Source: Candidatus Altimarinota bacterium
Lineage (GTDB): Bacteria; Patescibacteriota; Gracilibacteria; UBA4473
Direction: 5' to 3'
Assembly: GCA_021736215.1 (NCBI GenBank)
Contig: JAIPGI010000002.1
Location: 62,001 to 126,000, forward strand
Length of the DNA: 64,000 nt
Shown: positions 6,668 through 63,213 of the stretch, in pieces
How positions within the stretch are numbered: position 1 is the first letter of the stretch
Layout: each line of letters opens with the position of its first letter
The notes under the pieces: model-generated
Told to the model about the DNA's origin: nothing
Database searches by the model: none
What the model saw: the letters and a program-made list of their open reading frames with translations, nothing else
Translations under genes and position numbers: made by a program

Positions 6668-6994
6668 CTAGCAAATATTTTGAATGAATGAAAAATTTTT
6701 CAAAATCTCATCTTTCCCTTCAACCGACCACGAAATTCCTTTGGGAGGATCTATTTCCTTGATATCAGTGCCATTCATGGTTATCCAGGCACCATGGAGG
6801 TGGAAAATTTTTACATCAATTTTTATGACCATTTTTTGCAATCGAGAAAGCGATGCAATTTTTACTTTTTTTGTTTTAGGGAAAAGAGTAAAAAGCTCCC
6901 TAAAAAATTCTTCATCAACTGATTTTTTGATCAATTCGAGAAGTTTTGAAATTTGTGTGTCGAAATCGGTTACTACTTTCGTGTGAGATGACAT
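6668..6994 (-). CDS. Small protein of unknown function (108 residues)
   Basis: First gene of a leftward pair. Helical N-terminus (FDTQISKLLELIKKSVDEEF), then a likely beta-rich part (KIDVKIFHLHGAWITMNGTD). No signal or membrane segment and no family recognised. AAGGAAGGTG lies upstream of the ATG. The partner gene begins eight bases past the stop with a ribosome site overlapping that stop, so translation is probably coupled. Confidence 0.65.
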   Translation of the reverse strand: MSSHTKVVTDFDTQISKLLELIKKSVDEEFFRELFTLFPKTKKVKIASLSRLQKMVIKIDVKIFHLHGAWITMNGTDIKEIDPPKGISWSVEGKDEILKNFSFIQNIC

Positions 6995-7331
6995 AAAACA
7001 CCTTCCTTAGTATTTGATTGGTAAAATAATTGTTTTTATTGAAACTTTTATCGGTACCGAAAAGAACAAGAACCAATGCGGTTTCTGAAGTCTCTGAAAT
7101 ATGTCAGGACACCAGAAAAACCAACCAGCTTTCGCCGGTCTGTCCTTGTGTCTAAATCTTTTTTTATCTACACACCAGAACGCACCGGCGAAAGCGCCAG
7201 CCCAAAAAAGAAGAAGAAAAAGAATACGTTCTGTATCATCAGTTATGTATTGTGATCAAATATTCTTAACTGTCAAATTTTGTTTTGAACCCGGGTTTTC
7301 AAAACCTGGGTTCTAGTTTAGAATCCTGCTG
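6995..7331. other. Intergenic region before hisS with two inverted repeats
   Basis: No gene seen. It holds a long-range inverted repeat (AGCTTTCGCCGGT at 7127-7139 against ACCGGCGAAAGC at 7184-7195) and the palindrome at 7287-7313. Related CCGGCGAA words occur around 5880-5940. Confidence 0.6.
7287..7313. repeat. Dispersed CCCGGG palindrome, copy 1 (hisS leader)
   Basis: GAACCCGGGTTTT-C-AAAACCTGGGTTC, a near-perfect palindrome 18 bases before the hisS ATG. It is a short relative of the GAACCCGGG repeat family found at seven other places here. Confidence 0.75.
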
Positions 7332-8663
7332 ATGAGTAAATACAATGTTTCCTGTCCGAGTGGGTTTCCTGAATGGACACCAGCCGAAGAAAGAGTGTAT
7401 CAGCAATGGGTGAGTGTCATTCGTGATGTGTTTGAAAAAAACGGATTCATGCCAATAACGACGCCATTGGTGGAGAGAGAAGAGAATCTCCTTTCTAAAG
7501 GAGGAAATCCCAAAGAAATGTATGTCCTCAAGCGAATTTTGGATGAAGAGGGGGACAATTCACACTCAGGAAATGCTTTGAGATTCGATCACACGGTACC
7601 TTTGGCGCTCTATGTGGCGAGACATTTGAATGATATTGCATTCCCTTTTAAGCGTTATGCGATAGGGCCTGTGCTTCGTGGAGAACGGGCCCAAAAAGGA
7701 CGATTTCGACAATTTGATCAATGTGACATTGATGTAATTGGTTCGGGAGAGCTTTCTCTTGCTAATGATGCGATGGTCGCAGCGGTGATTATTCAGATAT
7801 TTGAAAGGCTTTTGGAGGGGGAAAAGTTTGTGGTGAGAATAAATAATCGAAAAATTTTAACAGGATTTTTTGAACAATTAAAAATTAAGAAAAAAGATAT
7901 AAAAAATGTATTGGCTATCGTTGATGATTTAGAAAAGATTGGTCACGAAAAAGTACAAAAAAATTTATTAGAAATGGGACTTTCTGAGACAGTGTCAAAA
8001 AAGATTTTAGAATTTACAGAAATTTCAGGAACGAACGATGAAATTTTGAAAAAAGCAGAAAAGACCGGGCTTCTTCAAAAGACCGGGCTTAATGAACTCA
8101 AAGAAGTCTTGCAGGCGCTTCGCTTTTTGGGAGTCGATGAAAAGAAATTTAAAGTAGACCTCTCTATCGCTCGAGGCCTCGACTACTACACAGGTACGGT
8201 TTACGAGACGACTTTGGTCGGTTCAGAAGGGTTGGGATCTATCTGCTCAGGAGGTCGGTATGATGATTTGGCAGAGATTTTTACGGGGAAGAAATTACCA
8301 GGAGTGGGAATTTCTATCGGTCTGACGAGGCTCCTTTCCAAACTCTTCGAAGCGAAGTTGGTCAATGTCGATCGCAGTTCTCCGAGTCACTTTCTCGTTA
8401 TTGCTGCCAGTGAGGGAGCCAAAAGTAAGTGTTTGAAAATTGCTTCCCTCATCAGATCATTCGGTTATCCCGTAGAAAATTATCTCGAAGATAAAAAAAT
8501 TGGAAAACAGTTTGAATATGCTGACAAATTGGGAATTCCTTATGCGGTCATTGTTGGGGACGATGAGTTGAGCAAAAAATGTGTTCAATTAAAGAACATG
8601 AAATCAGGAACACAGAAAGAAATTGTTGCCAAAGATCTCGAGAAAGAATTAAAAAAATTATAA
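7332..8663 (+). CDS. hisS: Histidine-tRNA ligase
   Basis: 443 residues, normal for bacterial HisRS, which charges tRNA-His in the cytoplasm. Class II signatures appear in order: motif 2 (FKRYAIGPVLRGERAQKGRF), QFDQCDIDVIG, the histidine-specific LDYYTGTVYE, GSICSGGRYDDL and motif 3 (GVGISIGLTRL), then the anticodon-binding domain to the end. It is a single gene between long spacers. The ATG lacks a Shine-Dalgarno sequence and sits 18 bases past a palindrome, which would form a hairpin if transcription starts upstream of it. A truncated HisRS-like paralogue lies at 36019-37053. Confidence 0.97.
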   Translation: MSKYNVSCPSGFPEWTPAEERVYQQWVSVIRDVFEKNGFMPITTPLVEREENLLSKGGNPKEMYVLKRILDEEGDNSHSGNALRFDHTVPLALYVARHLNDIAFPFKRYAIGPVLRGERAQKGRFRQFDQCDIDVIGSGELSLANDAMVAAVIIQIFERLLEGEKFVVRINNRKILTGFFEQLKIKKKDIKNVLAIVDDLEKIGHEKVQKNLLEMGLSETVSKKILEFTEISGTNDEILKKAEKTGLLQKTGLNELKEVLQALRFLGVDEKKFKVDLSIARGLDYYTGTVYETTLVGSEGLGSICSGGRYDDLAEIFTGKKLPGVGISIGLTRLLSKLFEAKLVNVDRSSPSHFLVIAASEGAKSKCLKIASLIRSFGYPVENYLEDKKIGKQFEYADKLGIPYAVIVGDDELSKKCVQLKNMKSGTQKEIVAKDLEKELKKL

Positions 8664-8972
8664 GAGGTATGTGAAACCCTATCATGGCGACACTTCTGTA
8701 TTGTCGCCGTAAAGAAGGTTAATCATCGCAATCCCGGGTTCAAAGGATTCCCAGAACCCGGGATTACGAAAAATAAGTATGTCTTCCTGAGTGAGTCCGC
8801 CTCGGGCGGACGAATGAAGGATCTTCCTTATAGGTATTTACATGTAATTATTTTGAAGATTCTTCCTCCCGCTTTGGCGGGACTCAGAAAGACATTTGTT
8901 TTGTCATTTTTCCTACACTGTGAGCATTGACTTTTTCCTTTTTCTGACTAATTTCGCGTCCCCCAGTGGGAC
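8664..8972. other. Intergenic region with hairpins
   Basis: No gene seen. A perfect seven-pair hairpin GGCGACA/TGTCGCC (8686-8708) follows hisS but has no T-run, so it is not a standard terminator. The GAACCCGGG palindrome follows at 8730, then small GC stems GTCCGCC/GGCGGAC (8796-8812) and CCCGC/GCGGG (near 8870-8880). Confidence 0.6.
8730..8765. repeat. Dispersed CCCGGG palindrome, copy 2
   Basis: AATCCCGGGTTC, 12-base middle, GAACCCGGGATT: perfect 12-base arms. Same family as 28032, 30465 and 46014. Confidence 0.9.
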
Positions 8973-9022: not shown

Positions 9023-10663
9023 ATGGAGTTCTTGAAACCGTATATGACTCGAAAAAATATTATCTGGATCATTGTTATTATCCTTTCGGCACTGGCGTTG
9101 TGGCGATTGCTGTCTCCCAAAACCATTGAAGAAAAAGTTCCCGAAACCAAAGTAAAAACAGTTCAAACTATTACTTTTGGAGAGTGGCGTCCAGACAGTA
9201 GTCGTGAGGTTTTGGCTACACTCTCTTCTACGGGAGATATAAATATTGCGGCTGATGTTTCTGGAACAATCGATAATGTTTTTGTGAGTATTGGAGATGC
9301 TGTTGAGAAGGGACAACTTTTGGCAACATTCCGACAAACCAACGATCTCACCCAAGTAACTTACGAAAATGCTTTGAGTACGTTGGCAGTTGTTCGGGTG
9401 TCTGCTCAAAATACTATTACTTCGTCAGAAATTGCTCTTCAGACGGCTCAGGCACAACTGGAACAAACGGTACAAACACAAGATCAAATCTATCGGCAGG
9501 TTTTTGAATCATTGCGTACACAGGCAAATAATTCTGAAACCACAGCTTCTAATGCCCTGGATTGGGCAGATAGAATATTGGGAGCATCGACTCGATTTCG
9601 ATATCAAAATTACGATGCGGACAGGTCTCAGATTGGATCTACTGATCAGATAACCAAACAAGCAACTAAAAATATGGTAGAAGAATTGGTTCGAGAACAG
9701 CCAAATCTCTCTCAATTGCCTAGTTTCAAACCAACAGACCAAGATGTCATTGTTTATGGAGAAACGCGTTTAAGATTTTTGAAAGAAGTACAGGAGGTTG
9801 TTCGGAACATGGATGGTCTCATACGTCGCACTGATCTTACTGGGGATTTAACCCTTGCTGACAAAAATATTTTTCAGACGGAAGCCGAAACATTTTCTTC
9901 CAAAGTAGATGCGGGGTTTCTTTCGTTGGAAAGTGCTATCCAAACAGCAAAAACACAAAATCAGACCCGCAGACTTGCAATTCTGACTGCAGAAAATGCT
10001 GTACGTAATGCAGAAGCATCATTGTCGCTTGCTCAAGCACAATCAAAATCAAGCGTGTCATCTGCTCAAAACCAACTCAAATCGACACAGGTTTCTAAGA
10101 ATGACTTGGAAGTTCGAGCGCCATTTGCAGGGAAAATCACCGAAAAATTTATTAATAATTTTGATCAAGTGAGAATGGGCGAAAATCTTTTTTCTTTGGT
10201 TTCTGAAACTATTGCCCCCAAGGTTGTTGGATTTGTTACGAAGGATGAACTCGACAGACTTCTTACCAAAGATACTGTCAAAGTACTTCTCTCAAATAAT
10301 CAAACGATTGAAGTGAAACAATCATATTTAAGTTTTAAAACCGACGCGGAAAGTCAAAAAATACAAGTAGAGTTTCAATTAGATACTTTTCCAGAAGGAG
10401 TTTTGGTGGGAAGTTTTGCTAAAATTCTCGTGCCTTCTCAAAACGGAAAAGTAAACCTTGTTCCTATTACCGCGTTATCATTTGAACCAGATGGAGCAGA
10501 GGTTTTGATAAAGGGAGAAAATGACATTGCGAAGCGGGTCAAAGTCCAATATGGGAAAATTGTTGGGGATGCCGTAGAGATTGTCGGAGGCTTAGAAAAA
10601 GGAACGAAAGTGCTTCAATATAGGAATAGAACACACGCTGGAGAAATAATCAATGAACAATGA
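9023..10663 (+). CDS. RND efflux adaptor (membrane fusion protein), system 1
   Basis: 546 residues. One N-terminal membrane anchor (about residues 13-32, IIWIIVIILSALALWRLL), a lipoyl/barrel part (STGDINIAADVSGTIDNVFV, GDAVEKGQLLATF), a long coiled-coil hairpin, the returning lipoyl half (EVRAPFAGKITEKFI) and a C-terminal barrel. The hairpin carries an insert of over 100 residues containing LGASTRFRYQ; the adaptor at 22911 has the matching MGASSQFRYQ. Adaptors of this family link an RND pump to an outer channel, but none is encoded nearby. The substrate cannot be told. It is followed by its pump gene after a short AT-rich spacer. Confidence 0.9.
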   Translation: MEFLKPYMTRKNIIWIIVIILSALALWRLLSPKTIEEKVPETKVKTVQTITFGEWRPDSSREVLATLSSTGDINIAADVSGTIDNVFVSIGDAVEKGQLLATFRQTNDLTQVTYENALSTLAVVRVSAQNTITSSEIALQTAQAQLEQTVQTQDQIYRQVFESLRTQANNSETTASNALDWADRILGASTRFRYQNYDADRSQIGSTDQITKQATKNMVEELVREQPNLSQLPSFKPTDQDVIVYGETRLRFLKEVQEVVRNMDGLIRRTDLTGDLTLADKNIFQTEAETFSSKVDAGFLSLESAIQTAKTQNQTRRLAILTAENAVRNAEASLSLAQAQSKSSVSSAQNQLKSTQVSKNDLEVRAPFAGKITEKFINNFDQVRMGENLFSLVSETIAPKVVGFVTKDELDRLLTKDTVKVLLSNNQTIEVKQSYLSFKTDAESQKIQVEFQLDTFPEGVLVGSFAKILVPSQNGKVNLVPITALSFEPDGAEVLIKGENDIAKRVKVQYGKIVGDAVEIVGGLEKGTKVLQYRNRTHAGEIINEQ

Positions 10664-10714
10664 ACAATGAATAATTAACAAAATTATAAATTCTTTAATT
10701 CTTTGACTCTCTTT

Positions 10715-13700
10715 ATGAACGGAACGAATCTCCTAAACACGAATAAAAACTCTTCGGAAGAAGGGAAATTATCGATGATATGGACACTTTTTTTGGATCG
10801 TTTCAAGGTAACGATCCTCGTCATAATCTTTATTCTTTTTTATGGAATAAATGCTTTTTCAAGTATTCCACGAGAAATTACACCAACCATTGATATTCCT
10901 GCGGCAACAATCATGACTATTTGGCCAGGAGCAAGCCCTGGAGATGTGGAAAAGTTGGTTACTAACAAAATTGAAAAGGAAATCAAAAATCTTGAAAACG
11001 TTGATAAATATACCTCGTTTTCTATGTCTGGGGTTTCGGTTGTAAGTATTGAGTTTGATCTCGATACCAATCAGCCAGAAAATATGCGGAAACTTCGTGA
11101 AAAATTAGACGTTGCTGAAAAAGATCTCCCTGATACGATTATCGACCAGCCAACGTTAACAGAGGTAAGTATTACAGATATCCCGATTGTGTCTTTGACT
11201 CTCTCAGGGGATTTTTCTTGGTCGGAATTAAAACAGTTTGCCGAAGTCCTCGAAACAGAATTTGAATCAGTTGATAAAGTAAAGGATGTATTGGTTAAGG
11301 GAGCTCCAGAGGATCAAGTGCACATCCTGGTGGATCCTATTAAATTACAATCAAAAGGAATAGGGCTCAATGAAGTTATCGACGTTCTTCGGCAGCATCA
11401 CCGAGATATGCCATTGGGACAGATTTCTGTGGCTGGACAAAAGATAGAAGTAACCGTTCGTGCGGAACTTGAAACGGCCGCAGAATTTATGGACATCCCT
11501 ATTTCACAAGTGAATGGAGCCATGATCCGATTGGCTGATTTTGCAGAAATTCGTCGAGAGTTCGATAAATTCGAAGTAGAAACATTTTTTGCTTCAGAAA
11601 CAGGGAGTGAACCAGCAGTACTTATCGACGTGATTAAATCGGGTTCCAAGGGAAATGTTATTTCCATGGTGGGAGAAGTATTGGCACGAGTAGAAAGATT
11701 GAAACTCAATGGAAATATTCCCGAAAACTTAGATGTACGGGTAACCTATAGTCGTGCTGACGAGATTCAAGAAAGCCTCAATACACTTACCAATAGTGGA
11801 TTACAAACTTTGGTACTTATTGCGATTGTAATGTTTTTGGCTTTGGGATGGAGAGAGTCGCTTCTGGCATCAGTTTCAATTCCTCTTTCACTTCTGATTG
11901 CTATTGCAACATTATACTTTATGGGACAGACTTTTAATGGGGTTTCTCTTTTTGCTCTCGTTCTTTCGGTAGGGCTCTTAGTAGATAATGCAATTATTAT
12001 CGTAGAGGGTCTTTCAAGTGGTATCCATGAAGATAAACTTACACCACATGATGCGGCATTAGAAGCTCTCAAAACATTCAGATGGCCTATTATTACGGGA
12101 ACACTGACAACAGTCTTTGCATTCCTGCCTATGATTTTTTATATCAGTGGAATTAGTGGGCAATACATAGCAGTTATTCCTGTTACCGTAATGGCTGGAC
12201 TGGTGGGGGCGCTTTTTGTTTCGCTTTTCTTAATGCCTGCAATTGGAGCAAAGTTTTTCGAATCTATTCCACCAGCGAAACATAGAGAATCTTCCATCTT
12301 ACACCACATTCAAGATTGGTATGCGGTCAATATGAAGAGTATTCTTTCTTCTCGAAAAAAGACGTTTTTGACATTGGGACTCGCTTTTGCGGCTTTTTTC
12401 TTTTCCGTGAGTCTTGTGGTTACGGGGAAAGTTCCCATCGAGGTATTTCCTTCATCTGATCAGACGTTTTTTGCAGCTAAAGCAGAATTCCCCATAGGAA
12501 CAAAACTAGAAGAGACCCATAAACTTATGGCACCTCTTGAAGAAGAGTTGCGGAAGTTTTTTCAGCCACAAAAAAATGGAGAAATATTTTTAAAAAACTT
12601 CGTTTTCACGGTGGGGAAAGCATCTGATTCAGTCTATGATCCCGACCATGGTGTGAATTTGGCAGAAGAAAATATACTCGGAATTACGATCAATCTTACC
12701 GATAAAGAAGATCGAGAAACTCCTTCTTTCAAAATCGTTCCGATTATCTCTGAAGCACTTCGAAAAATTGTTCCTCCTCATGTAGATTTTCGATTTCAAG
12801 AAGAAGCGGGAGGCCCTCCAACCGGATCTCCTGTGGAAATTCGTCTTATGGGGGATGATTTGGTGCATCTCGAAGAAATGGCCGATACACTCAAGGGAAA
12901 GTTGGAAGTACTTGAAGCGACTACAAATGTACGAGATTCTCGACAGGATCCCGTGACACAATTGACGTGGAAATTCGATAGGAATGTTTTGGCACGATTT
13001 GGGTTGACTCCTATCCGTATAATGGAAGCTCTTCGGGCTTCAGTGAATGGAACAACGGTTGTAAAACTGACAGAAGGGGACAAAGAAATTGATGTCAATT
13101 TACGAGTCGATTGGGATGGGACGAGACAATGGAATGATCCACAATCTCTCGATTATCTTGAACGTATTCTTATTAAGTTGCCTTCTGGGAAATTCGTCAC
13201 CTTAGGACAAGTCGCCTATCCAGAGCTCTCTTCGGAACTTTCTCGTATTGAACATCGAAATGGTATGCGTATTATTTACGTTCGGTCAGATTTAGAAAAA
13301 GGAACAACCGCTTCACAACTGGCGCCTCAAATAAAAACCATGATAGATAATTCAGGGAAGCGTCCTGGAGAAGTGGTTGAAGTGGGTGGAGAAAACGAAG
13401 AAGGAAATCGCCTCATTCAAGAAATGTCTCTCGCGATGATGGCGGCGGTCCTTTTGATCTTTTTGGTGTTGGTTTGGCAGTTTAATTCTTTCTCACAACC
13501 AATCACTATCATGCTGATTATTCCGCTCTCTTTGACGGCAGTATTTATTGGTTTTGGGATTATGGGGATTCCGATTAGTTTTCCGACGATGATTGGAATC
13601 GTATCTTTGGCAGGAATTATCGTAAACGATGCAATTGTGCTCATTGATCAAATTAATCATCGATTAGCGCAAGGACTAGATGCTATTTCTTCCTATATTC

Positions 13701-13960
13701 AAGCGGGTCGAGAGCGAATGCAGCCAATATTTTTGACATCGGTCACTACAGTGGTAGGAATGATTCCTTTATCACTTTCGGATCCCGTGTGGGGAGGATT
13801 AGGATTTGCTATTGTCTATGGAATGATGCTTTCAACGGTTTTGACTTTGCTTTTAGTTCCGTGTTTCTTGATAGTTATTCGCAAAGCTCGTTTATGTCTA
13901 GAACGACAATGTCATAAGGGAATTGAGAAGATAGAGCATATGGCTCATCACGAGAAATAA
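10715..13960 (+). CDS. RND efflux pump permease, system 1
   Basis: About 1081 residues, the usual size of AcrB-family proton-driven exporters. It has the N-terminal helix after residue 20, a large extracytoplasmic domain, the TM2-6 block with the TM4 motif SVGLLVDNAIIIVEG (the usual second Asp is Asn, as in many relatives), a second extracytoplasmic domain and a TM8-12 block (GIVSLAGIIVNDAIVLIDQI; TSVTTVVGMIPLSL). I prefer the ATG at 10715; an in-frame TTG lies four codons upstream. The spacer after the adaptor contains tandem AACAATGA words. Inner-membrane location; substrate unknown. Confidence 0.95.
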   Translation: MNGTNLLNTNKNSSEEGKLSMIWTLFLDRFKVTILVIIFILFYGINAFSSIPREITPTIDIPAATIMTIWPGASPGDVEKLVTNKIEKEIKNLENVDKYTSFSMSGVSVVSIEFDLDTNQPENMRKLREKLDVAEKDLPDTIIDQPTLTEVSITDIPIVSLTLSGDFSWSELKQFAEVLETEFESVDKVKDVLVKGAPEDQVHILVDPIKLQSKGIGLNEVIDVLRQHHRDMPLGQISVAGQKIEVTVRAELETAAEFMDIPISQVNGAMIRLADFAEIRREFDKFEVETFFASETGSEPAVLIDVIKSGSKGNVISMVGEVLARVERLKLNGNIPENLDVRVTYSRADEIQESLNTLTNSGLQTLVLIAIVMFLALGWRESLLASVSIPLSLLIAIATLYFMGQTFNGVSLFALVLSVGLLVDNAIIIVEGLSSGIHEDKLTPHDAALEALKTFRWPIITGTLTTVFAFLPMIFYISGISGQYIAVIPVTVMAGLVGALFVSLFLMPAIGAKFFESIPPAKHRESSILHHIQDWYAVNMKSILSSRKKTFLTLGLAFAAFFFSVSLVVTGKVPIEVFPSSDQTFFAAKAEFPIGTKLEETHKLMAPLEEELRKFFQPQKNGEIFLKNFVFTVGKASDSVYDPDHGVNLAEENILGITINLTDKEDRETPSFKIVPIISEALRKIVPPHVDFRFQEEAGGPPTGSPVEIRLMGDDLVHLEEMADTLKGKLEVLEATTNVRDSRQDPVTQLTWKFDRNVLARFGLTPIRIMEALRASVNGTTVVKLTEGDKEIDVNLRVDWDGTRQWNDPQSLDYLERILIKLPSGKFVTLGQVAYPELSSELSRIEHRNGMRIIYVRSDLEKGTTASQLAPQIKTMIDNSGKRPGEVVEVGGENEEGNRLIQEMSLAMMAAVLLIFLVLVWQFNSFSQPITIMLIIPLSLTAVFIGFGIMGIPISFPTMIGIVSLAGIIVNDAIVLIDQINHRLAQGLDAISSYIQAGRERMQPIFLTSVTTVVGMIPLSLSDPVWGGLGFAIVYGMMLSTVLTLLLVPCFLIVIRKARLCLERQCHKGIEKIEHMAHHEK

Positions 13961-22648: not shown

Positions 22649-22677
22649 TTGACAATATACCCATGGGGGTATATAGA
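22649..22677 (+). promoter_or_regulatory. Promoter and CsoR/CstR-type operator of RND operon 2
   Basis: TTGACA (22649-22654), 17-base spacer, TATAGA (22672-22677). Filling the spacer and entering the -10 box is a perfect palindrome, ATATACCC-ATGG-GGGTATAT (22655-22674), the TACCC/GGGTA layout bound by CsoR and CstR repressors. The expected start of transcription coincides with the repressor's ATG at 22684, so the mRNA is probably leaderless. Confidence 0.85.
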
Positions 22678-22683
22678 GATGGC

Positions 22684-22914
22684 ATGGAAAATATAGTAAA
22701 TCGTCTTCAGCGTATTGAAGGGCAGGTGAGAGCTCTTCAAACTATGGTACAGGACGAGAGCGATTGTGAAAAAATAGTCACCCAATTTAAAGCCGCTCAG
22801 TCGGCTCTCGACAGTTGTTTTACTCAACTTATGACTGATAACTTACAACAATGCATAACTTCTCAAGATACGCGGAAACTCAAAAGCATTCTTAAGATTT
22901 TATTAAAACAATGA
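22684..22914 (+). CDS. CsoR/CstR-family repressor (CstR-like ligand residues)
   Basis: 76 residues from the ATG at 22684; an in-frame start at 22621 lies upstream of the promoter and is rejected. The CsoR helical core is plain: IVNRLQRIEGQVRALQTMV, then DCEKIVTQFKAAQSALDSC and DNLQQCI. In copper-sensing CsoR the ligands are Cys-His-Cys with the His four residues before the last Cys. Here Cys28 and Cys57 keep the 29-residue spacing but that His is Asn53, as in persulfide-sensing CstR. A third Cys (45) lies between. It likely represses its own operon through the palindrome in its promoter and overlaps the adaptor gene (ATGA). Confidence 0.88.
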   Translation: MENIVNRLQRIEGQVRALQTMVQDESDCEKIVTQFKAAQSALDSCFTQLMTDNLQQCITSQDTRKLKSILKILLKQ

Positions 22915-24461
22915 AAACATTATCATTTCTCACTCTTTTCGTTTCACTTTTTTTCGTTGGATGTGCATCTGAGACGACTCCTTTTGTAGAAAAAATCGAA
23001 CCTCAAGCGTTCGTTCTTCATCGAGAGAATTTCCAACCAGAATTATCACTCACGGGATCTGTTCAGTCGGAAAAGGAAGTCCCTTTGTCGAGTAAGATTT
23101 CTGGGCATGTGGAGGCATTGCTTGTTGATGTGGGAGATTCCGTTTTAGAGGGGCAGGTGCTTCTTAAATATGTTTTGGGAGATAATGCATCACAAGTTGA
23201 TTTTCAGAATTCCCTTCTTCAATTAGATACCACGAAAATGGTTGCAGAAGATGCGGTTCGATCTGCTCATGTGAATTTGCAAACGATGGAATCGCAACAC
23301 AATCAAAATATAAAACAGACGGATGTTTCTATTCAGAAAATTTTTGAAACACTTCTCACTAAAATTAATAATACAAAAACTCTTTCACAACAAATACTTC
23401 GCTTTTTGGATCAAACGATGGGGGCCTCGTCCCAATTTCGATACCAAGAGGATGGAACAACTGTTGAAATGTTGGGATATGGAAATACGGTTGATAAGCA
23501 AAAATTACTCAACTGGATTGAGAACTTGGCGAGAAAATATCCAGAAAAAAATGTCGATCGTTGGAATATATCTGAACAAGAAATTCTTCTTGAAGCTCGA
23601 TCTCAGATTGATTTCTTGAAGGACCTCAAGGCTTCGACAGAACTTTTTTATCAACTCGCGGTTCATACTCCAACCGTTTCAGATTTTTCTGCTGAAAAAA
23701 GAGATAAAATTGCTTCTCAAGCGGCAGATTATTTACGCTCAATAGATGCTGATATATTCGCACTTCAGACGCAAATGGAATCAAGTATTGTCGAAAAAGA
23801 GACACTTCAGGCGGGACTTTTGAAAACTTATAATGCCATAAAAGATGCAGAGGCCCAACTGCAACTTTCTCAGGCCAGTTCGGAAAATCAGGTATCTTCC
23901 GCTCAAACAAGAGTGAATTTGGCACAAACATTCCAAAAAGAATTAATCCTAAGAGCCCCTTTTCCAGGGGTTATTACCCAGAAATTTGTTGAAGTAGGGG
24001 AACTGGTTTCGCCTGGTAATACGGTCTTGGAGCTTGCGGACATGTCTATTCTCAAGGTCAATACGAGCATTCCTGATACTTTTATTGGAAAGATAAAAAA
24101 AGGAATGAAGGCGGATATTCTTTTGGATGGGATATCGGGAACATATCAAGGAGAAATCAGCAAAATCTACCCATCAGTCGATTCTCAAACAAGAAATTTG
24201 GGAATTGAAATTACGTTTTTAGATCCTTCCGACGACATCAAATTACATATGTTTGCTCGAGTATTATTGCGTTTTGATTCGGAACAAATATTTTTTGTTC
24301 CAAGGGAATATATTTCTTATGCCGCAGATAAATCATTTGTATTCCTCAAAGATGGAACAAAAGTATCTGTAAAAACAGGTACAGAAAAAGATGGATTTGT
24401 TGAAATTTTTTCTGAGGAATTACAGGAAGGATCAGCTCTTCTTTTCCCGTCTTCACTATGA
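22911..24461 (+). CDS. RND efflux adaptor lipoprotein, system 2
   Basis: 516 residues. A lipoprotein signal peptide ends in the lipobox FVGC (Cys at residue 18), so it is lipid-anchored rather than helix-anchored like the adaptor of system 1. Lipoyl halves (SLTGSVQSEKEVPLSSKISG; LILRAPFPGVITQKFVEVG) flank a long helical hairpin with an insert that includes MGASSQFRYQ, paralogous to the 9023 gene. The C-terminal barrel follows. It overlaps both the repressor and the pump gene by four bases, so the three form a coupled operon under the CstR-like operator. Confidence 0.92.
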   Translation: MKTLSFLTLFVSLFFVGCASETTPFVEKIEPQAFVLHRENFQPELSLTGSVQSEKEVPLSSKISGHVEALLVDVGDSVLEGQVLLKYVLGDNASQVDFQNSLLQLDTTKMVAEDAVRSAHVNLQTMESQHNQNIKQTDVSIQKIFETLLTKINNTKTLSQQILRFLDQTMGASSQFRYQEDGTTVEMLGYGNTVDKQKLLNWIENLARKYPEKNVDRWNISEQEILLEARSQIDFLKDLKASTELFYQLAVHTPTVSDFSAEKRDKIASQAADYLRSIDADIFALQTQMESSIVEKETLQAGLLKTYNAIKDAEAQLQLSQASSENQVSSAQTRVNLAQTFQKELILRAPFPGVITQKFVEVGELVSPGNTVLELADMSILKVNTSIPDTFIGKIKKGMKADILLDGISGTYQGEISKIYPSVDSQTRNLGIEITFLDPSDDIKLHMFARVLLRFDSEQIFFVPREYISYAADKSFVFLKDGTKVSVKTGTEKDGFVEIFSEELQEGSALLFPSSL

Positions 24462-27400
24462 AACTTAATTTTGCTGGACGGATTGCCCGTTTTTTTCTCT
24501 TGAATCGTCCTCTCACGATTCTGATTTTATTGACGACCATTGGGGCGGGGATTGTTTCTTATCAAATGACCCACAAACAGTATAACCCAACCATTACCCT
24601 TCCTGCGTTTCAAATTGAAACAAATTATCCTGGAGCGACAGCTGAAGAAGTTGAACGATTTATTACCCAAGAGTTGGAAGAAAAAATTTCTGATATAGAA
24701 GGTGTTGATAAATTGTTCGGACAATCTTTTGAGGGAAAATCTATTCTGCAGGTACAGTTTCTTGTGGGGAAAGACGTTGATAGCGCAAAAATAAAAGTAC
24801 GACAGAAAATCGAAGAAAATTTCGATTTACTAGCTTTTTCGATGGAGCATCCTCTCATAAAAAATATAGACCCAGATAGCGTGCCGATTGTGACAATTGG
24901 ATTTCAGTCGAAGTCCCTTTCTCAAAATCAGGTTCGTCCTCTGGCGTTAGAAATTCTCAATGAACTCCGACGTGTTCAGGATATTGCAAACCTGCAGGTT
25001 CATGGAGGGGAAGCGCATTCACTCAAGGTAATACTCGATCCACTTAGACTTCATGCTCGGAATATTTCTATTGATATGGTTCGACGGGCATTGCAATCTT
25101 CAAATGTACAACAATTCGTCGGAACCACGAAAACAGGAAAAACACTCCATGAAATACAAATTGACGGGATATTTACGAGTGCGCAAGATGCTGAAAAAAT
25201 AGTTATTGTCCCCGGTGTTCAATTACGTGATATTGCGGAGGTAACGGATTCCTTTCAGGAAAAAACATCATTTGTTCAGGTACAAACCCTTTCTTCTGAA
25301 CAGACGCTTACCTTAATAGACACCGTGTTCCTTTCCTTTGCCAAAAGAGAGGGATCAAATTCCATTACTGTTGCCAATGAGGCATTAAATCGTTTGGATC
25401 AAGTCCTCAAGAACTCTCGTTATGGGGAGTTGGAAACTCATATTTTTCGCAATGATGCGACTGTTGCTCAAAACGCCATAGGGAATCTGCTCAAGAATCT
25501 ACTCACGAGCGTACTTATTGTTTCGGCAGTGCTTTTAATTTTTTTGGGATTTCGTTCGGCTTTTGTGGTGGCTATTGCGATTCCGCTCACGATAGCACTC
25601 GTTTTTCTCATTGGCTTACTGTGGGGAGAGTCCATTAATCGTATTACGCTTTTTGCCTTAATTTTATCATTAGGACTCTTGGTGGATAATGCGACGGTTA
25701 TTGTCGAAAATATTCATCGACACTTTCATCAAGGAGGAAAAGATAAAAAAGAAGCCATTATAACAGCCGTCAATGAAGTAGGAATTGGACTTTTTATTTC
25801 CACACTAACATCGGTTATTGTTTTTCTTCCAACTTCGTATATTACAGGAATGATGGGTGAGTATATGCGCCCACTCTCTTTCTTTGTTCCAGTCGCACTG
25901 ATTCTCTCTTTGATGGTGGCTTATGTGTTGACGCCTTTTTTAGCGGACATCTTTCTCACACAACGTGCGGATGTAATATACAAAGAAGGATTTTTTGATC
26001 GAGTTGCCGACAAATATGGAATCCTGTTGGAGAAATTACTCTCGAATAAAAAACTTAAAAAAAGATTTCTAGGAATAATTTTTGGAGCATTTCTTTTGGT
26101 ATTGACCTTTCCTGTTTTGAAACTGGTTCACTTCAAAATGCTTCCATCGGCTGATAAAGAACAATTTTTTGTTCTCATTGATACGCCGGAAGGAACTGAT
26201 ATTACCATGACCAAATTGGTGTCCGATAGAGTTGTGAATCAAATCGTTAAAAATCTGGAAGTTCAATCAGTGCAGAGTTTTGTGGGAGAACCATCGGTTG
26301 TTGACTTCAATGGATTATTTCGTGGAGCTCACTTGCGACAGGGGAGAAATTTAACAACACTGCGCGTCAATCTCAGTAGTCCTGATGAACGGAGTGAGGA
26401 ATCCACCGATATTCTCATCGCTGTTCGGAAACAGGTATCCAGTTTCCAAAAACAGTTTACATCGCCATCAGACGAAGCCTTTGTATTCCAAAATACTACG
26501 CTCAAATTCGTCGAAGATCCCCCCGGACCTCCCGTGAGAGCGACTCTTGAAGCCAAAGTAAAAGGGCCTGATAGAGAAATTCTTGAGCAAGTGGCGAGAG
26601 ACATCGAAAGAATTTTTTCGCAAGAACCAGATGTACAAGATATCGATACGACCCTCGAATATCCTGCTCCTAGAACCGTTCTATCGGTTGATCACGAGAA
26701 GGCATTACAGGCAGGTGTTTCTGCTGTGCAAATTTCAGAAACTCTGCAGGGAGTGTTGAATTCTACGGTCGTCAGTCAATATCATCTTCCCAATCAGTAC
26801 GAAATGGCATTGGTGGAAATGGAATTTCCTCTTTCTCAAAAAGACCAAATTCAGGATTTGGGGGATATTTATCTTCCAAATGCACAGGGAGAAATGGTGC
26901 CATTTTTGTCGGTGGTCAGGTCTCGTCAAAGTCGAAATCAATCGGTCCTTTTGACGGATGATCAAGAGCCAACAGTTTTGGTGAATGCAGAAATGGGAGG
27001 ACGAAGCGTGGTCTATGCTGTTATCGATATGATTCCTCAAATTTTGAAATATCAGTTTCCACAGGGAGGAAAACTTATTGACTGGAATCTTTTTGGATTT
27101 ACTTTCGAAACAGAAACTCACGATCAATATTTCATTCAGTGGGGAGGGGAGTGGGAAATGACCTTGGAAAATTTTCGCGACTTAGGCATTGCCATGGTCG
27201 TGGCTTTTTTCCTGATTTATATCGTTTTGGTGGCTCAATTTCAGTCATTCCTCTTACCACTCCTTGTTATGACGACGATGCCTCTTGGGTTTTTGGGAAT
27301 TTTACCTGGATTTGCCATTTTGGATGCGGGATGGGGAACTTTTTTGACAGCGACGTCGCTCATTGGGTTCATTGCCCTCATGGGAATTGTTGTGAACAAT

Positions 27401-27670
27401 GCCATCATGTATCTCGAATATTTTGATATTCTTCGGGAACAGGGCGTTGAATTTCACCAGTCGTTGATTCAAGCAGGAAAAACACGCCTCAGACCAATTA
27501 TTTTGACTTCAGCAACGACAGTCTTGGGGAACCTCACGATTGCTTCAGATCCTGTGTGGTCGGGGCTCGCATGGTCGATTGTTTTCGGACTTTCCCTGTC
27601 AGCGGTTTTGACACTGGGCGTCTTTCCGCTTCTATATGATTTTTTCCGTCCAGCACATCATATGTCTTAA
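24458..27670 (+). CDS. RND efflux pump permease, system 2
   Basis: 1070 residues of AcrB type. N-terminal helix (PLTILILLTTIGAGIVSYQM), first extracytoplasmic domain (TNYPGATAEEVERFITQELE), TM4 motif LSLGLLVDNATVIVENI, second domain, and closing TM block (FIALMGIVVNNAIMYLEYF; TSATTVLGNL). Asp-Asn replaces Asp-Asp in TM4, as in system 1. The operator and neighbours suggest induction by reactive sulfur, a thiol stressor or a metal; the actual substrate cannot be read from sequence. Confidence 0.95.
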   Translation: MKLNFAGRIARFFLLNRPLTILILLTTIGAGIVSYQMTHKQYNPTITLPAFQIETNYPGATAEEVERFITQELEEKISDIEGVDKLFGQSFEGKSILQVQFLVGKDVDSAKIKVRQKIEENFDLLAFSMEHPLIKNIDPDSVPIVTIGFQSKSLSQNQVRPLALEILNELRRVQDIANLQVHGGEAHSLKVILDPLRLHARNISIDMVRRALQSSNVQQFVGTTKTGKTLHEIQIDGIFTSAQDAEKIVIVPGVQLRDIAEVTDSFQEKTSFVQVQTLSSEQTLTLIDTVFLSFAKREGSNSITVANEALNRLDQVLKNSRYGELETHIFRNDATVAQNAIGNLLKNLLTSVLIVSAVLLIFLGFRSAFVVAIAIPLTIALVFLIGLLWGESINRITLFALILSLGLLVDNATVIVENIHRHFHQGGKDKKEAIITAVNEVGIGLFISTLTSVIVFLPTSYITGMMGEYMRPLSFFVPVALILSLMVAYVLTPFLADIFLTQRADVIYKEGFFDRVADKYGILLEKLLSNKKLKKRFLGIIFGAFLLVLTFPVLKLVHFKMLPSADKEQFFVLIDTPEGTDITMTKLVSDRVVNQIVKNLEVQSVQSFVGEPSVVDFNGLFRGAHLRQGRNLTTLRVNLSSPDERSEESTDILIAVRKQVSSFQKQFTSPSDEAFVFQNTTLKFVEDPPGPPVRATLEAKVKGPDREILEQVARDIERIFSQEPDVQDIDTTLEYPAPRTVLSVDHEKALQAGVSAVQISETLQGVLNSTVVSQYHLPNQYEMALVEMEFPLSQKDQIQDLGDIYLPNAQGEMVPFLSVVRSRQSRNQSVLLTDDQEPTVLVNAEMGGRSVVYAVIDMIPQILKYQFPQGGKLIDWNLFGFTFETETHDQYFIQWGGEWEMTLENFRDLGIAMVVAFFLIYIVLVAQFQSFLLPLLVMTTMPLGFLGILPGFAILDAGWGTFLTATSLIGFIALMGIVVNNAIMYLEYFDILREQGVEFHQSLIQAGKTRLRPIILTSATTVLGNLTIASDPVWSGLAWSIVFGLSLSAVLTLGVFPLLYDFFRPAHHMS

Positions 27671-27681
27671 TTTTTTTCTTT

Positions 27682-27912
27682 ATGAATATTTTTCGTTTAC
27701 CGGTTTCGAAGTGGTACATGGAACGCATTATTTTCCTTTTTGCAGGAAGCGTTATTGCATTAAGCACAGGACTCGCATTTTTCTTTGATGTGCGTTGGCT
27801 CGCTGTTACGGGATTTGTTGGTTTTATGCAGATCATCTTTGCCGTTACTGGGTACTGCCCATTGGCAATAATTTTGGATAAGATGGGCGTGAAGTCCTAT
27901 CGGGAGAAATAA
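27682..27912 (+). CDS. DUF2892 (YgaP-type) small membrane protein
   Basis: 76 residues with two membrane helices (IIFLFAGSVIALSTGLAFFF; WLAVTGFVGFMQIIFAVTG) and the family signature GYCPL..IL...G. The same domain forms the membrane tail of the rhodanese YgaP, and DUF2892 proteins often sit in sulfide or persulfide operons. It starts 12 bases after the pump gene and is the last gene of the repressor-led operon. Its Cys-Pro motif may handle sulfane sulfur; that is inference. Confidence 0.85.
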   Translation: MNIFRLPVSKWYMERIIFLFAGSVIALSTGLAFFFDVRWLAVTGFVGFMQIIFAVTGYCPLAIILDKMGVKSYREK

Positions 27913-28002
27913 ATTATACTTCTTCGAGATCGGTCTCATACAAAATCCCCCTTCATTTCCCCCTTTTTCAAAGGGGGAAAGAAAATACTTCCATTTCTTG
28001 TC

Positions 28003-28031: not shown

Positions 28032-28069
28032 CAATCCCGGGTTCAAGGAATTCTTAGAACCCGGGATTG
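28032..28069. repeat. Dispersed CCCGGG palindrome, copy 3
   Basis: CAATCCCGGGTTC ... GAACCCGGGATTG around AAGGAATTCTTA. It is the exact reverse complement of copy 4 at 30465, including flanking GATAGATAGATTC bases. Confidence 0.95.
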
Positions 28070-30286: not shown

Positions 30287-30685
30287 GCTTTCCCCCTTAG
30301 GAAAAGGGGGAAATGAAGGGGGATTTTAAACCCCTCTCCGCAATCCTCTCCCAAAAGGCGAGGAAAATACAAAAACCTCCCTCAGTCCCTCTTTGTAAAG
30401 AGGGAAGAAAAATGAGATTGCTTCTCCCCGCCTTGACGGGGCTCGCAATGACAACAAGTATAAACAATCCCGGGTTCTAAGAATTCCTTGAACCCGGGAT
30501 TGATAGATAGATTCCCCTTGAGGTAAAGGCGAGGAAGTGAAGGAGGATTTTACATGAGACAGGTCTCGAAGTTCGATGAATCACGAAAACATATTCTCAT
30601 CTTTTGGAAAGAGAAAATAGGAAAGAAAAATTTCCCTTTTACGTATTAATGATCGAAAGGACATATTTTTTAACCTCCTTGTACC
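30287..30685. other. Intergenic mosaic of repeat modules
   Basis: No gene seen. It holds mirrored CCCCCTTAGGAAAAGGGGG and CCTCCCTC runs, the GATTGC...CTCGCAATGAC module (about 30417-30451), the CCCGGG palindrome and, near 30640-30680, an AT-rich stretch that may contain the promoter of the next gene. Confidence 0.6.
30465..30502. repeat. Dispersed CCCGGG palindrome, copy 4
   Basis: Exact reverse complement of copy 3 (28032) with matching flanks. Confidence 0.95.
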
Positions 30686-43594: not shown

Positions 43595-43631
43595 GACCCT
43601 AGGTTCTAAGAATTCCTTGAACCCGGGATTG
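43595..43631. repeat. Dispersed CCCGGG palindrome, copy 7 (one arm mutated)
   Basis: Left arm CCCTAGGTTC instead of CCCGGGTTC; right arm GAACCCGGGATTG intact. The middle TAAGAATTCCTT matches copies 4 and 8. Confidence 0.85.
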
Positions 43632-45868: not shown

Positions 45869-46013
45869 TGAGAATTCTCCCTCTCCTTCAGTTCCTTGCT
45901 TACCGGCAGGCAGGCTCTCCCGCTAGGGGCGAGAGTCCCTCTTTGCAAAGAGGGAAAAAGAATAAGATTGCTTCTCCCGCGTACGCGGGATCGCAATTAC
46001 AATGAATATATAT

Positions 46014-46050
46014 AATCCCGGGTTCTAAGAATTCCTTGAACCCGGGATTG
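46014..46050. repeat. Dispersed CCCGGG palindrome, copy 8
   Basis: AATCCCGGGTTC ... GAACCCGGGATTG around TAAGAATTCCTT, flanked by GATAGAGAAA as in copy 7. Confidence 0.9.
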
Positions 46051-61560: not shown

Positions 61561-63213
61561 ATGAAGTTTTTGAAAATCACACTCACCCCTAGTGACACTA
61601 TTGGAAATATTGTTGAGATATTTGGGAAAACAGAAGCCAAAAAGATTATTTTCCTCTGTCCTCGAAATTTTTCGCTTCTGTCTGACATGGCTTTTCTCAA
61701 AAAACTTCGAGAAGAAGCTCTTATCCATCATAAAAAAATAGCGTTTATTTCTCTCCAAAAATTTGCACGAGATGTGCTGAAACGCCAGCAGTTTGAGGTC
61801 TATTCCAAAATAGTGAAGGACTACGAGGAAGGGGAAGAAAAAACAGTAAAAGATTTTGGAGACACTCTAGAAGCAACAAAAAACATTCTCAAAGAAGAAC
61901 CTATCGAAAAGCCAATTGCTAAATCAACGGAAAAACCAAAATTTGAAACCCATAAAATTCAAAATCCAGAAGAGTCAAAACCCATTCAAGGGAAAGTTTT
62001 TTTTGGTTTTTTGGCTGTTATTTTGATTCTTATCGGACTGTGGTTGTGGGTGTCTCCTCAAGTTGTTATAACCCTCAAGCCCAAGGTGTCCGTAGTTCCC
62101 ATTACTCAGAATGTTTTGGTCACATTTCCAGAGACTATTGTAAGGGAGCAAGATAAATTTTTACCACAAATACAAGGAATATTTGTGCAAACGGAAGTTG
62201 CAGGGACGGAAGTTTTTCCGTCTACGGGACGAAAATATGATTTGACGAATGCAAAAGGGAAAGTGACGATTTTTAACGAAACCTCAAAGCCAAAATTCTT
62301 TATTCCATCTCGTCTCTCTACGGCGGATGGGGTGATTTTCCGTTTTACTCAAAATATAACGATTCCTCCGAAAGATGAAAAAGGGGCAGGACGATTAGTT
62401 GTAGATATCGTAGCAGACGAATACGATGAGAATGGGAAACCTATTGGTGAGCGAGGGAATATTGATGCGGGAACAGATCTCATTTTCCCAGCCTTGGGTT
62501 CTGTGGCACAAGAATTGTATTATGCCAAGGCAAATCAAGGGCCACTGGTAGGAGGTTCTACACTCACACATTATTTTATTCAGGAAGGGGATTTTGAAGG
62601 GGTCAAAAATACACTCGTTGAAAGTTTTCGTGTTCGAGGAATAGAGTATCTCGAGAATGAAATTCGGAATCGTTCTGAACGCGAAGGGAAACGATATGTT
62701 CTTCTTGATGATCCAAGACTTTTGAGCCATGAACTTTTGGAGGCAACATTTCCGAATTATGTTGTAGGGCAAGAAACGCAAACCTTTGAAGTTCAGGCCA
62801 AACTAAAGCTTTCTGGAATAGTTTTTGACCAAAAACAAGTTTCAGATTTCTTAGAAGAAAAACTCAAACAAACCCAAGATCACCGAAAAAAACTTATTAA
62901 TATTGATCAAACTTCTGCGAGTTATAGAGTCTTGGAATCTGAGAAATTAGAGGAGGAGAAATGGGTGAAATTATCCGTTGAAATGCAGGGAGTAGAAATG
63001 TTGGATATTGATTCGGGTTCAGATGAAGCCAACGAATGGCAACAAAGTATCAAAAAAGAGATTGCAGGAAAATCTATTTCCGAAGCCAAAAGCATCCTGA
63101 TTAATTTCCCAGAAATTGAATATGTGGGAAACATAAAAATTTCTCCTTTTTGGTCGGAACAAGTTCCTTCAAATTTTAACCAGATTGAATTCAAAATACA
63201 GAGAGCGGAGTAG
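61561..63213 (+). CDS. Baseplate-J-like membrane protein
   Basis: 550 residues. A cytoplasmic part of about 140 residues (KKIIFLCPRNFSLLSDMAFL; charged Glu/Lys linker) precedes a single membrane helix near residues 147-167 (VFFGFLAVILILIGLWLWVS). The outer part has a baseplate-J-like core: FVQTEVAGTEVFPSTGRKY, FIPSRLSTADGVIFRFTQNI, GNIDAGTDLIFPALGSVAQE. Membrane-anchored versions are frequent in candidate-phyla genomes, with no known role and no phage genes beside them. TACATT at 61547-61552 may be the -10 box. Confidence 0.6.
   Translation: MKFLKITLTPSDTIGNIVEIFGKTEAKKIIFLCPRNFSLLSDMAFLKKLREEALIHHKKIAFISLQKFARDVLKRQQFEVYSKIVKDYEEGEEKTVKDFGDTLEATKNILKEEPIEKPIAKSTEKPKFETHKIQNPEESKPIQGKVFFGFLAVILILIGLWLWVSPQVVITLKPKVSVVPITQNVLVTFPETIVREQDKFLPQIQGIFVQTEVAGTEVFPSTGRKYDLTNAKGKVTIFNETSKPKFFIPSRLSTADGVIFRFTQNITIPPKDEKGAGRLVVDIVADEYDENGKPIGERGNIDAGTDLIFPALGSVAQELYYAKANQGPLVGGSTLTHYFIQEGDFEGVKNTLVESFRVRGIEYLENEIRNRSEREGKRYVLLDDPRLLSHELLEATFPNYVVGQETQTFEVQAKLKLSGIVFDQKQVSDFLEEKLKQTQDHRKKLINIDQTSASYRVLESEKLEEEKWVKLSVEMQGVEMLDIDSGSDEANEWQQSIKKEIAGKSISEAKSILINFPEIEYVGNIKISPFWSEQVPSNFNQIEFKIQRAE

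Follow-up and report, generated by a model that had tools for sequence, protein, structure and literature searches.

What signal would release a CsoR-family repressor that lacks the copper-ligand histidine and is coupled to an RND (resistance-nodulation-division) exporter, and what might such an exporter clear from a cell in which no TolC-family protein is found? This question is raised by an operon at 22649-27912 on the forward strand of a 64,000-nucleotide stretch of DNA (positions 62,001 to 126,000 of contig JAIPGI010000002.1, GenBank assembly GCA_021736215.1; hereafter the window) from a Candidatus Altimarinota bacterium (Patescibacteriota; class Gracilibacteria), a tiny organism of a symbiont-like kind. 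Its genome (1.01 Mb in 17 contigs, 93% complete), whose closest named relatives are Candidatus Gracilibacteria, encodes a single CsoR-family protein, namely that of the operon. On account of the ligand residues, the co-segregation of the repressor class with a non-metal pump clade, the conservation of the operator and the sulfur- or thiol-related context of sister repressors, we favor, as probable rather than assured, a reading in which a CstR-type thiol/persulfide switch derepresses an exporter as part of an autoregulated thiol-stress export unit.

Architecture of the operon and its promoter

The promoter and its embedded repeat are followed by genes for a CstR-like repressor of the CsoR/DUF156 family (22684..22914, 76 aa), an RND periplasmic adaptor (membrane fusion) lipoprotein (22911..24461, 516 aa), an RND permease (24458..27670, 1070 aa) and a YgaP-like transmembrane (TM) protein with a DUF2892 domain (27682..27912, 76 aa), all on the forward strand. 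ATGA overlaps join the repressor to the adaptor and the adaptor to the permease, while the DUF2892 start codon lies 11 nt past the RND stop codon. These junctions, along with the Pfam and NCBIfam matches given below, bear out the set of coupled genes described in an earlier inspection of the DNA made without database searches (the sequence-only reading).

The -35 element TTGACA (22649..22654) and the -10 element TATAGA (22672..22677) are separated by 17 nt, so that a perfect 8-bp inverted repeat, ATATACCC-ATGG-GGGTATAT (22655..22674), takes up the whole spacer and runs 3 nt into the -10 element; the sequence-only reading had likewise placed it in the spacer. No other such site occurs in the window at up to 3 mismatches (0.09 expected). 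TTGACA and, after it, an inverted repeat (5-8 bp) are seen 5' of the repressor, with the position conserved, in 9/9 loci of the class that couple the repressor to an RND pump (in addition to the window: L042, L032, L036, L041, L061, L146, L231 and L232), versus 13 of 18000 Markov-shuffled upstream regions. Similar promoter repeats are also present at several histidine-less repressors that have no pump. A genome-wide search with the core pattern TACCC-N2-8-GGGTA recovered 4 sites as against 7 for the reversed control; as the core pattern alone is not above chance, the significance of the operator rests on its position and conservation, and we claim no further regulon targets in the genome.

The operon promoter was not reported by a strict sigma-70 promoter scan because the rule of that scan requires a T at the sixth position of the -10 element. 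Given that the predicted transcription start falls on or adjoins the repressor ATG (22684), the operon message is probably leaderless. Inverted repeats of this kind are also used by copper CsoRs, and therefore the repeat by itself does not identify the inducer. Pseudo-palindromes with G/C tracts have been described previously (PMC10318464).

Ligand residues and affinities of the repressor

The repressor matches the PF02583 profile (CsoR/RcnR, DUF156) with 78.8 bits, the cut-off being 22.8. Its Cys28 and Cys57 align with the cysteines of Streptococcus pneumoniae CstR (SpCstR), and the copper-ligand position is occupied by Asn53, SpCstR likewise having an asparagine there; the solved SpCstR displays the same C...ENLxxC pattern. 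The Cys-His-Cys ligand set for Cu(I), with its HXXXC signature, is not present in the repressor, which has NXXXC instead. In Staphylococcus aureus CstR, persulfides are sensed via Cys31/Cys60 (PMC9774590). The sequence-only reading had correctly picked out Cys28, Asn53 and Cys57 but did not mention a third cysteine, Cys45, which is found in 6/9 RND-coupled repressors and in 0/20 of the uncoupled histidine-less ones that have both of the other cysteines. Beyond the window, repressors with the third cysteine are those of L232 (in genome G646), L032, L036, L041 and L042.

In a phylogenetic tree, the histidine-less repressors and SpCstR lie on one side and the Cys-His-Cys members of the class along with the reference CsoRs on the other, a split with weak support (83 in the Shimodaira-Hasegawa-like approximate likelihood ratio test, SH-aLRT; 80 columns). 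Based on the profile match, the residue table of the class and, with less weight, the tree, the repressor is best described as probably CstR-like in its working. A FrmR-like formaldehyde sensor was considered and is disfavored: FrmR has a glutamate at the second cysteine position (residue 64; PMC4528141), where this repressor has Cys57, and the NCBIfam FrmR model gives only 30 bits against a cut-off of 133.

Other ligand combinations are also seen among the relatives. The repressor of L147/L106, which lies within the histidine-less clade and beside a SLAC1-like gene, has a histidine at the copper-ligand position, indicating that the residue has switched in one direction or the other within the clade; hence, it is not a perfect marker. 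The locus L051 (genome G090) has two divergent CsoR-family genes about 0.8 kb apart (6983-7294 and 8066-8335) with Cys-His-His ligands and the HXXXH pattern of the nickel/cobalt RcnR types.

Co-segregation of repressor type and pump type

A PF02583 profile search of 145 related genomes yielded matches in 94, and the neighborhoods of nearly all matches were scored. The sequence-only reading had cautioned that its interpretation would suffer if the gene order were unique to this genome; coupling of the repressor to the pump was instead recovered in at least nine genomes of the class from four families (G000, i.e. the window genome, G002, G010, G016, G017, G020, G046, G640 and G646). The order CsoR-adaptor-RND is directly coupled in G000, G002, G010, G016 and G017, which belong to one family, and in G046; in G020 the DUF2892 gene is placed between repressor and adaptor, and a search with the window RND itself added G640 and G646, both with the order CsoR-DUF2892-adaptor-RND. 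The copper-ligand histidine is replaced in 9/9 of the coupled repressors (N, N, N, N, N, S, Y, E and Q), whereas 79/108 uncoupled repressors of the class retain it (Fisher p 2e-5, a value that overstates independence as the nine coupled cases share ancestry). This is the outcome of the alignment of ligand residues that the sequence-only reading had proposed as a check.

The permease matches PF00873 (AcrB-type ACR_tran) over residues 10-1063 with 523.8 bits, above the gathering score, and its best PDB relatives are the RND transporter 6vej and MexK. On TIGR00914, the CusA/CzcA model, it attains 233 bits, well below the cut-off of 701, and it is thus of an HAE-like (hydrophobe/amphiphile efflux) rather than a CusA/CzcA type. 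All RNDs linked to histidine-less repressors form one clade (SH-aLRT 100), and the four of them scored on TIGR00914 lie at 233-285 bits. Copper-type CsoRs are also found near RND pumps in five loci of the class (L040, L154, L161, L181 and L182), albeit separated from them by further genes or a long gap, and these pumps belong to a different clade, the two that were tested scoring 1014 (L161) and 986 bits (L040). Therefore, repressor type and pump type go together.

This split bears on the possibility that the repressor is a sensor of copper or another metal that has lost one ligand, with the pump exporting the metal. It shares its family and operator class with CsoR, its two cysteines could bind Cu(I) linearly, and copper-type CsoRs of the class do occur near RND pumps. 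However, the copper-type repressors keep Cys-His-Cys and their tested pumps score as CusA/CzcA, whereas the window pump falls under that cut-off and in the other clade; furthermore, the histidine is replaced in every one of the nine coupled repressors, and no heavy-metal P-type ATPase over the cut-off was found in the window genome. We accordingly consider a metal sensor very unlikely.

The pump is not always under a CstR-like repressor, as members of its clade without a CsoR are found in G051 (family f15) and in G251, a genome from another class of the phylum. The latter RND (locus L227; 53% identical to the window pump) has its own adaptor, with no CsoR seen just upstream, and its presence in a different class suggests transfer between classes.

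Sulfur and thiol context of related systems

Several histidine-less sister repressors are embedded in gene-neighborhoods related to sulfur or thiol metabolism. That of L052 is divergent from genes for thioredoxin, a fusion of rhodanese with a YgaP-like TM segment (the TM match being weak and below the cut-off) and an MBL-fold (metallo-β-lactamase) protein. Those of L037, L039 and L043 adjoin genes for DUF4395 and thioredoxin reductase (in L039 the DUF4395 gene only), while in L104 the neighbor is an SBF-family transporter gene, and a rhodanese lies 2 kb beyond it. The repressor of L105 adjoins SLAC1, as does that of L101 by sequence similarity.

Outside the phylum, tblastn searches on plasmids recovered proteobacterial and cyanobacterial clusters, carried by Paracoccus, Pseudanabaena, Methylocella, Azospirillum and Asticcacaulis, in which DUF2892 and an RND adaptor and permease occur along with SQR-like (sulfide:quinone oxidoreductase) and/or rhodanese genes and ArsR. 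A Salinivibrio cluster combines a flavoprotein with DUF2892, ArsR and RND, and in Rhizobium the DUF2892-RND pair stands by itself; other top RND matches, in Flammeovirga, Polaromonas, Roseibium and Sphingopyxis, showed no link to DUF2892 or sulfur genes. Plasmids of Rhodococcus and Mycobacterium avium place a histidine-less two-cysteine CsoR-family gene and DUF2892 next to MMPL, in company with DUF302/TauE/MBL or SQR-like genes.

A different signal could act via the same cysteine pair: the switch might sense other thiol-reactive stress (hypochlorous acid, quinones, aldehydes or disulfide stress), with the pump being a general exporter of electrophiles or their conjugates. The HAE-like character of the pump, with 6vej and MexK as its best PDB relatives, and the third cysteine, Cys45, would accord with this, and the S. 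aureus CstR regulon figures in papers on thiol-specific oxidant stress (hypothiocyanous acid, HOSCN, and AGXX). Against it stand the rhodanese, MBL-fold and thioredoxin genes adjoining the sister repressors and the co-occurrence of DUF2892 and RND with SQR-like proteins or rhodaneses in other phyla; its formaldehyde-sensing, FrmR-like form is further opposed by Cys57, in place of which FrmR has a glutamate (PMC4528141). We view this alternative as unlikely.

The exporter, the cell envelope and the DUF2892 protein

The adaptor bears a VGCA lipobox and matches TIGR01730 with 124.6 bits (cut-off 94.9). Its AlphaFold model (predicted local distance difference test, pLDDT, 86; predicted template modeling score, pTM, 0.49) shows a hairpin of about 80 residues per helix, with an extra helical segment, 171-260, capping the tip; as the model was built on seven sequences and has this pTM, the placement of the domains is uncertain. 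Foldseek recovered adaptor folds only (MacA/MexC-type/AcrA/EmrA), with large root-mean-square deviations on account of the long hairpin, and left the tip domain unexplained. A simple pattern search found no RLS-type TolC motif in the adaptor. In several pumps of the clade, the second Asp of the TM4 VDD motif is an Asn or Ser and the TM10 Lys position is an Asn, positions that we take to be equivalent to those of AcrB; the proton relay may therefore differ.

Searches of the window genome, 93% complete as it is, recovered neither a TolC-family protein (PF02321) nor an Omp85. Across the 145 relatives, an RND over the cut-off is present in 104 and an outer membrane efflux protein (OEP) over the cut-off in five. 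Patescibacteria have been proposed to be without an outer membrane (PMC12102498), and RND genes were noted earlier in Gracilibacteria (PMC11452946). The cells of genomes with the coupled operon seem to be without the outer membrane that such pumps normally need.

The DUF2892 protein matches PF11127 (YgaP-like TM) with 30.9 bits (cut-off 25.3), and its Cys59, in a GxCP motif, is invariant in 10 stand-alone homologues from several phyla. It accompanies the pump, at one end of the operon or the other, in 5/9 coupled genomes (G000, G002, G020, G640 and G646) but is not beside the RND in G010, G016, G017 and G046. The latter absence is what might be expected if this were an ordinary drug-efflux operon, in which the repressor type has no functional meaning and the DUF2892 protein is a bystander, and the related RNDs (31-36% identity) of recoded Gracilibacteria indeed adjoin genes that, by sequence reading, are TetR-like or ArsR-like. 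On the other hand, the promoter architecture is conserved in nine genomes, and DUF2892 recurs with RND in other phyla as well as in those five, making this the least probable of the explanations considered here.

Proposed mechanism and its implications

Under the favored reading of a CstR-type switch, the repressor, presumably as a tetramer, would occupy the inverted repeat in the promoter and block RNA polymerase. Upon accumulation of low-molecular-weight persulfides or polysulfides, Cys28 and Cys57 of neighboring subunits would be joined by a di-, tri- or tetrasulfide bridge, and the bridged repressor would leave the DNA, allowing all four genes of the operon to be transcribed together. The RND-adaptor pair, probably without a TolC channel, could then, together with the DUF2892 protein, rid the cell of the sulfur compound or of toxic products formed from it.

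Several observations weigh against this reading. The classical content of CstR operons is missing, with no sulfurtransferase, SQR or persulfide-processing gene in the operon, which has only RND, adaptor and DUF2892 genes besides the repressor. In the window genome as a whole we found no rhodanese and no SQR-like flavoprotein, the sole Pyr_redox_2 protein being thioredoxin reductase. In Azospira suillum, an SQR-RND operon and a DUF2892 gene outside it are switched on by H2S, which speaks for the reading, but deletion of the former left the H2S oxidation rate unchanged and deletion of the latter caused only a minor onset defect (PMC5358917). CstR-type switches can also be triggered by other thiol oxidants, and Cys45 lies outside the known CstR cysteine pair. 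To these must be added the weakly supported repressor tree, the shared ancestry of the coupled cases and the histidine of L147. Of the CstR-like interpretation offered by the sequence-only reading, the part that stands is founded on the ligand residues, the context of the sister repressors, the repressor/pump split and, with less weight, the tree placement near SpCstR; the operon content does not fit it.

A more far-reaching proposal, which we put forward only tentatively, is that a monoderm-like symbiont may handle reactive sulfur by export alone, using a CstR-type switch with a third reactive cysteine, a TolC-less two-part RND system with a remodeled adaptor tip and a DUF2892 protein that hands over sulfur species, no sulfide-oxidizing enzymes having been detected. 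More generally, these observations connect a putative CstR-type thiol switch with a clade of RND pumps in the candidate phyla radiation, and they suggest export, beside oxidation, as a route for handling reactive sulfur. They also offer a concrete handle both on the role of the widespread DUF2892 protein and on how an RND with a HlyD-type adaptor works in Patescibacteria without a detectable TolC. The contrast within the class, of Cys-His-Cys repressors with metal RNDs and histidine-less repressors with HAE-like RNDs, makes the ligand prediction testable.

Features surrounding the operon

A stable hairpin 3' of the operon (27952..27983, forward strand) is a possible terminator; the 71-nt stretch containing it folds at -20.4 kcal/mol (z -2.87). 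Just beyond it lies one copy of a dispersed palindromic element, CAATCCCGGGTTC...GAACCCGGGATTG (fold z -4.7), which has 14 matches in the window versus 1.5 expected; copies include 28032-28069, 30465-30502, 8729-8766, 46013-46050 and 43613-43631. Directly 5' of the repressor is a gene for a bacterial PH-domain protein (PF03703; 22100-22585), a homologue of which is also immediately 5' of the repressor in G010 (L036). The window encodes a second RND pump (10703-13960) with an adaptor-like open reading frame (9023-10663); this pump is distantly related to that of the operon and has its nearest relative in the sister genome G001. The operon neighborhood displays no sign of phage or plasmid origin, no dedicated search having been made.

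Comparison with known systems

The sequence-only reading had held a reactive-sulfur-controlled RND pump to be a new arrangement. Among the open-licence papers searched we found none describing an RND pump controlled by CstR, and to that extent the claim stands; similar units do exist elsewhere under ArsR, as do combinations of a histidine-less CsoR with DUF2892 and MMPL, and these limit it. Like the window operon, the CstR operons (S. aureus cst and the cst-like operon of Enterococcus faecalis) have a CsoR-family repressor with two reactive cysteines and no copper histidine. However, the functions known to be under their control are those of sulfurtransferases, SQR, persulfide dioxygenase/reductase or sulfite export rather than RND, adaptor and DUF2892, and the extra Cys45 of 6/9 RND-coupled repressors further sets the latter apart. 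The CsoR-linked CusA/CzcA-type loci of the class (L040 and L161) also place a CsoR-family gene near an RND, but with Cys-His-Cys ligands, a heavy-metal RND family and intervening genes.

Another comparison is offered by the RND and DUF2892 genes of Azospira suillum PS (Dsui_3440-3443 and Dsui_0042; PMC5358917), which are induced by H2S; there, SQR lies inside the RND operon and no CsoR-family repressor is described. The ArsR-linked plasmid units resemble the window operon in having DUF2892 beside an RND adaptor and permease and, close by, a repressor from a family some of whose members sense persulfides, but differ in that this repressor is of the ArsR/SmtB family, the hosts are diderm and the cluster includes enzymes of sulfide oxidation or sulfur transfer. 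The actinobacterial plasmid clusters share a histidine-less two-cysteine CsoR-family repressor, DUF2892 and an RND-superfamily transporter, yet the transporter is MMPL instead of an HAE-like RND, there is no HlyD-type adaptor and the repressor is not translationally coupled to the transporter. In light of the existence of these ArsR-linked and actinobacterial clusters, the combination of a putatively CstR-like repressor with an RND is a new form of a recurrent theme that unites DUF2892 with transporters of the RND superfamily.

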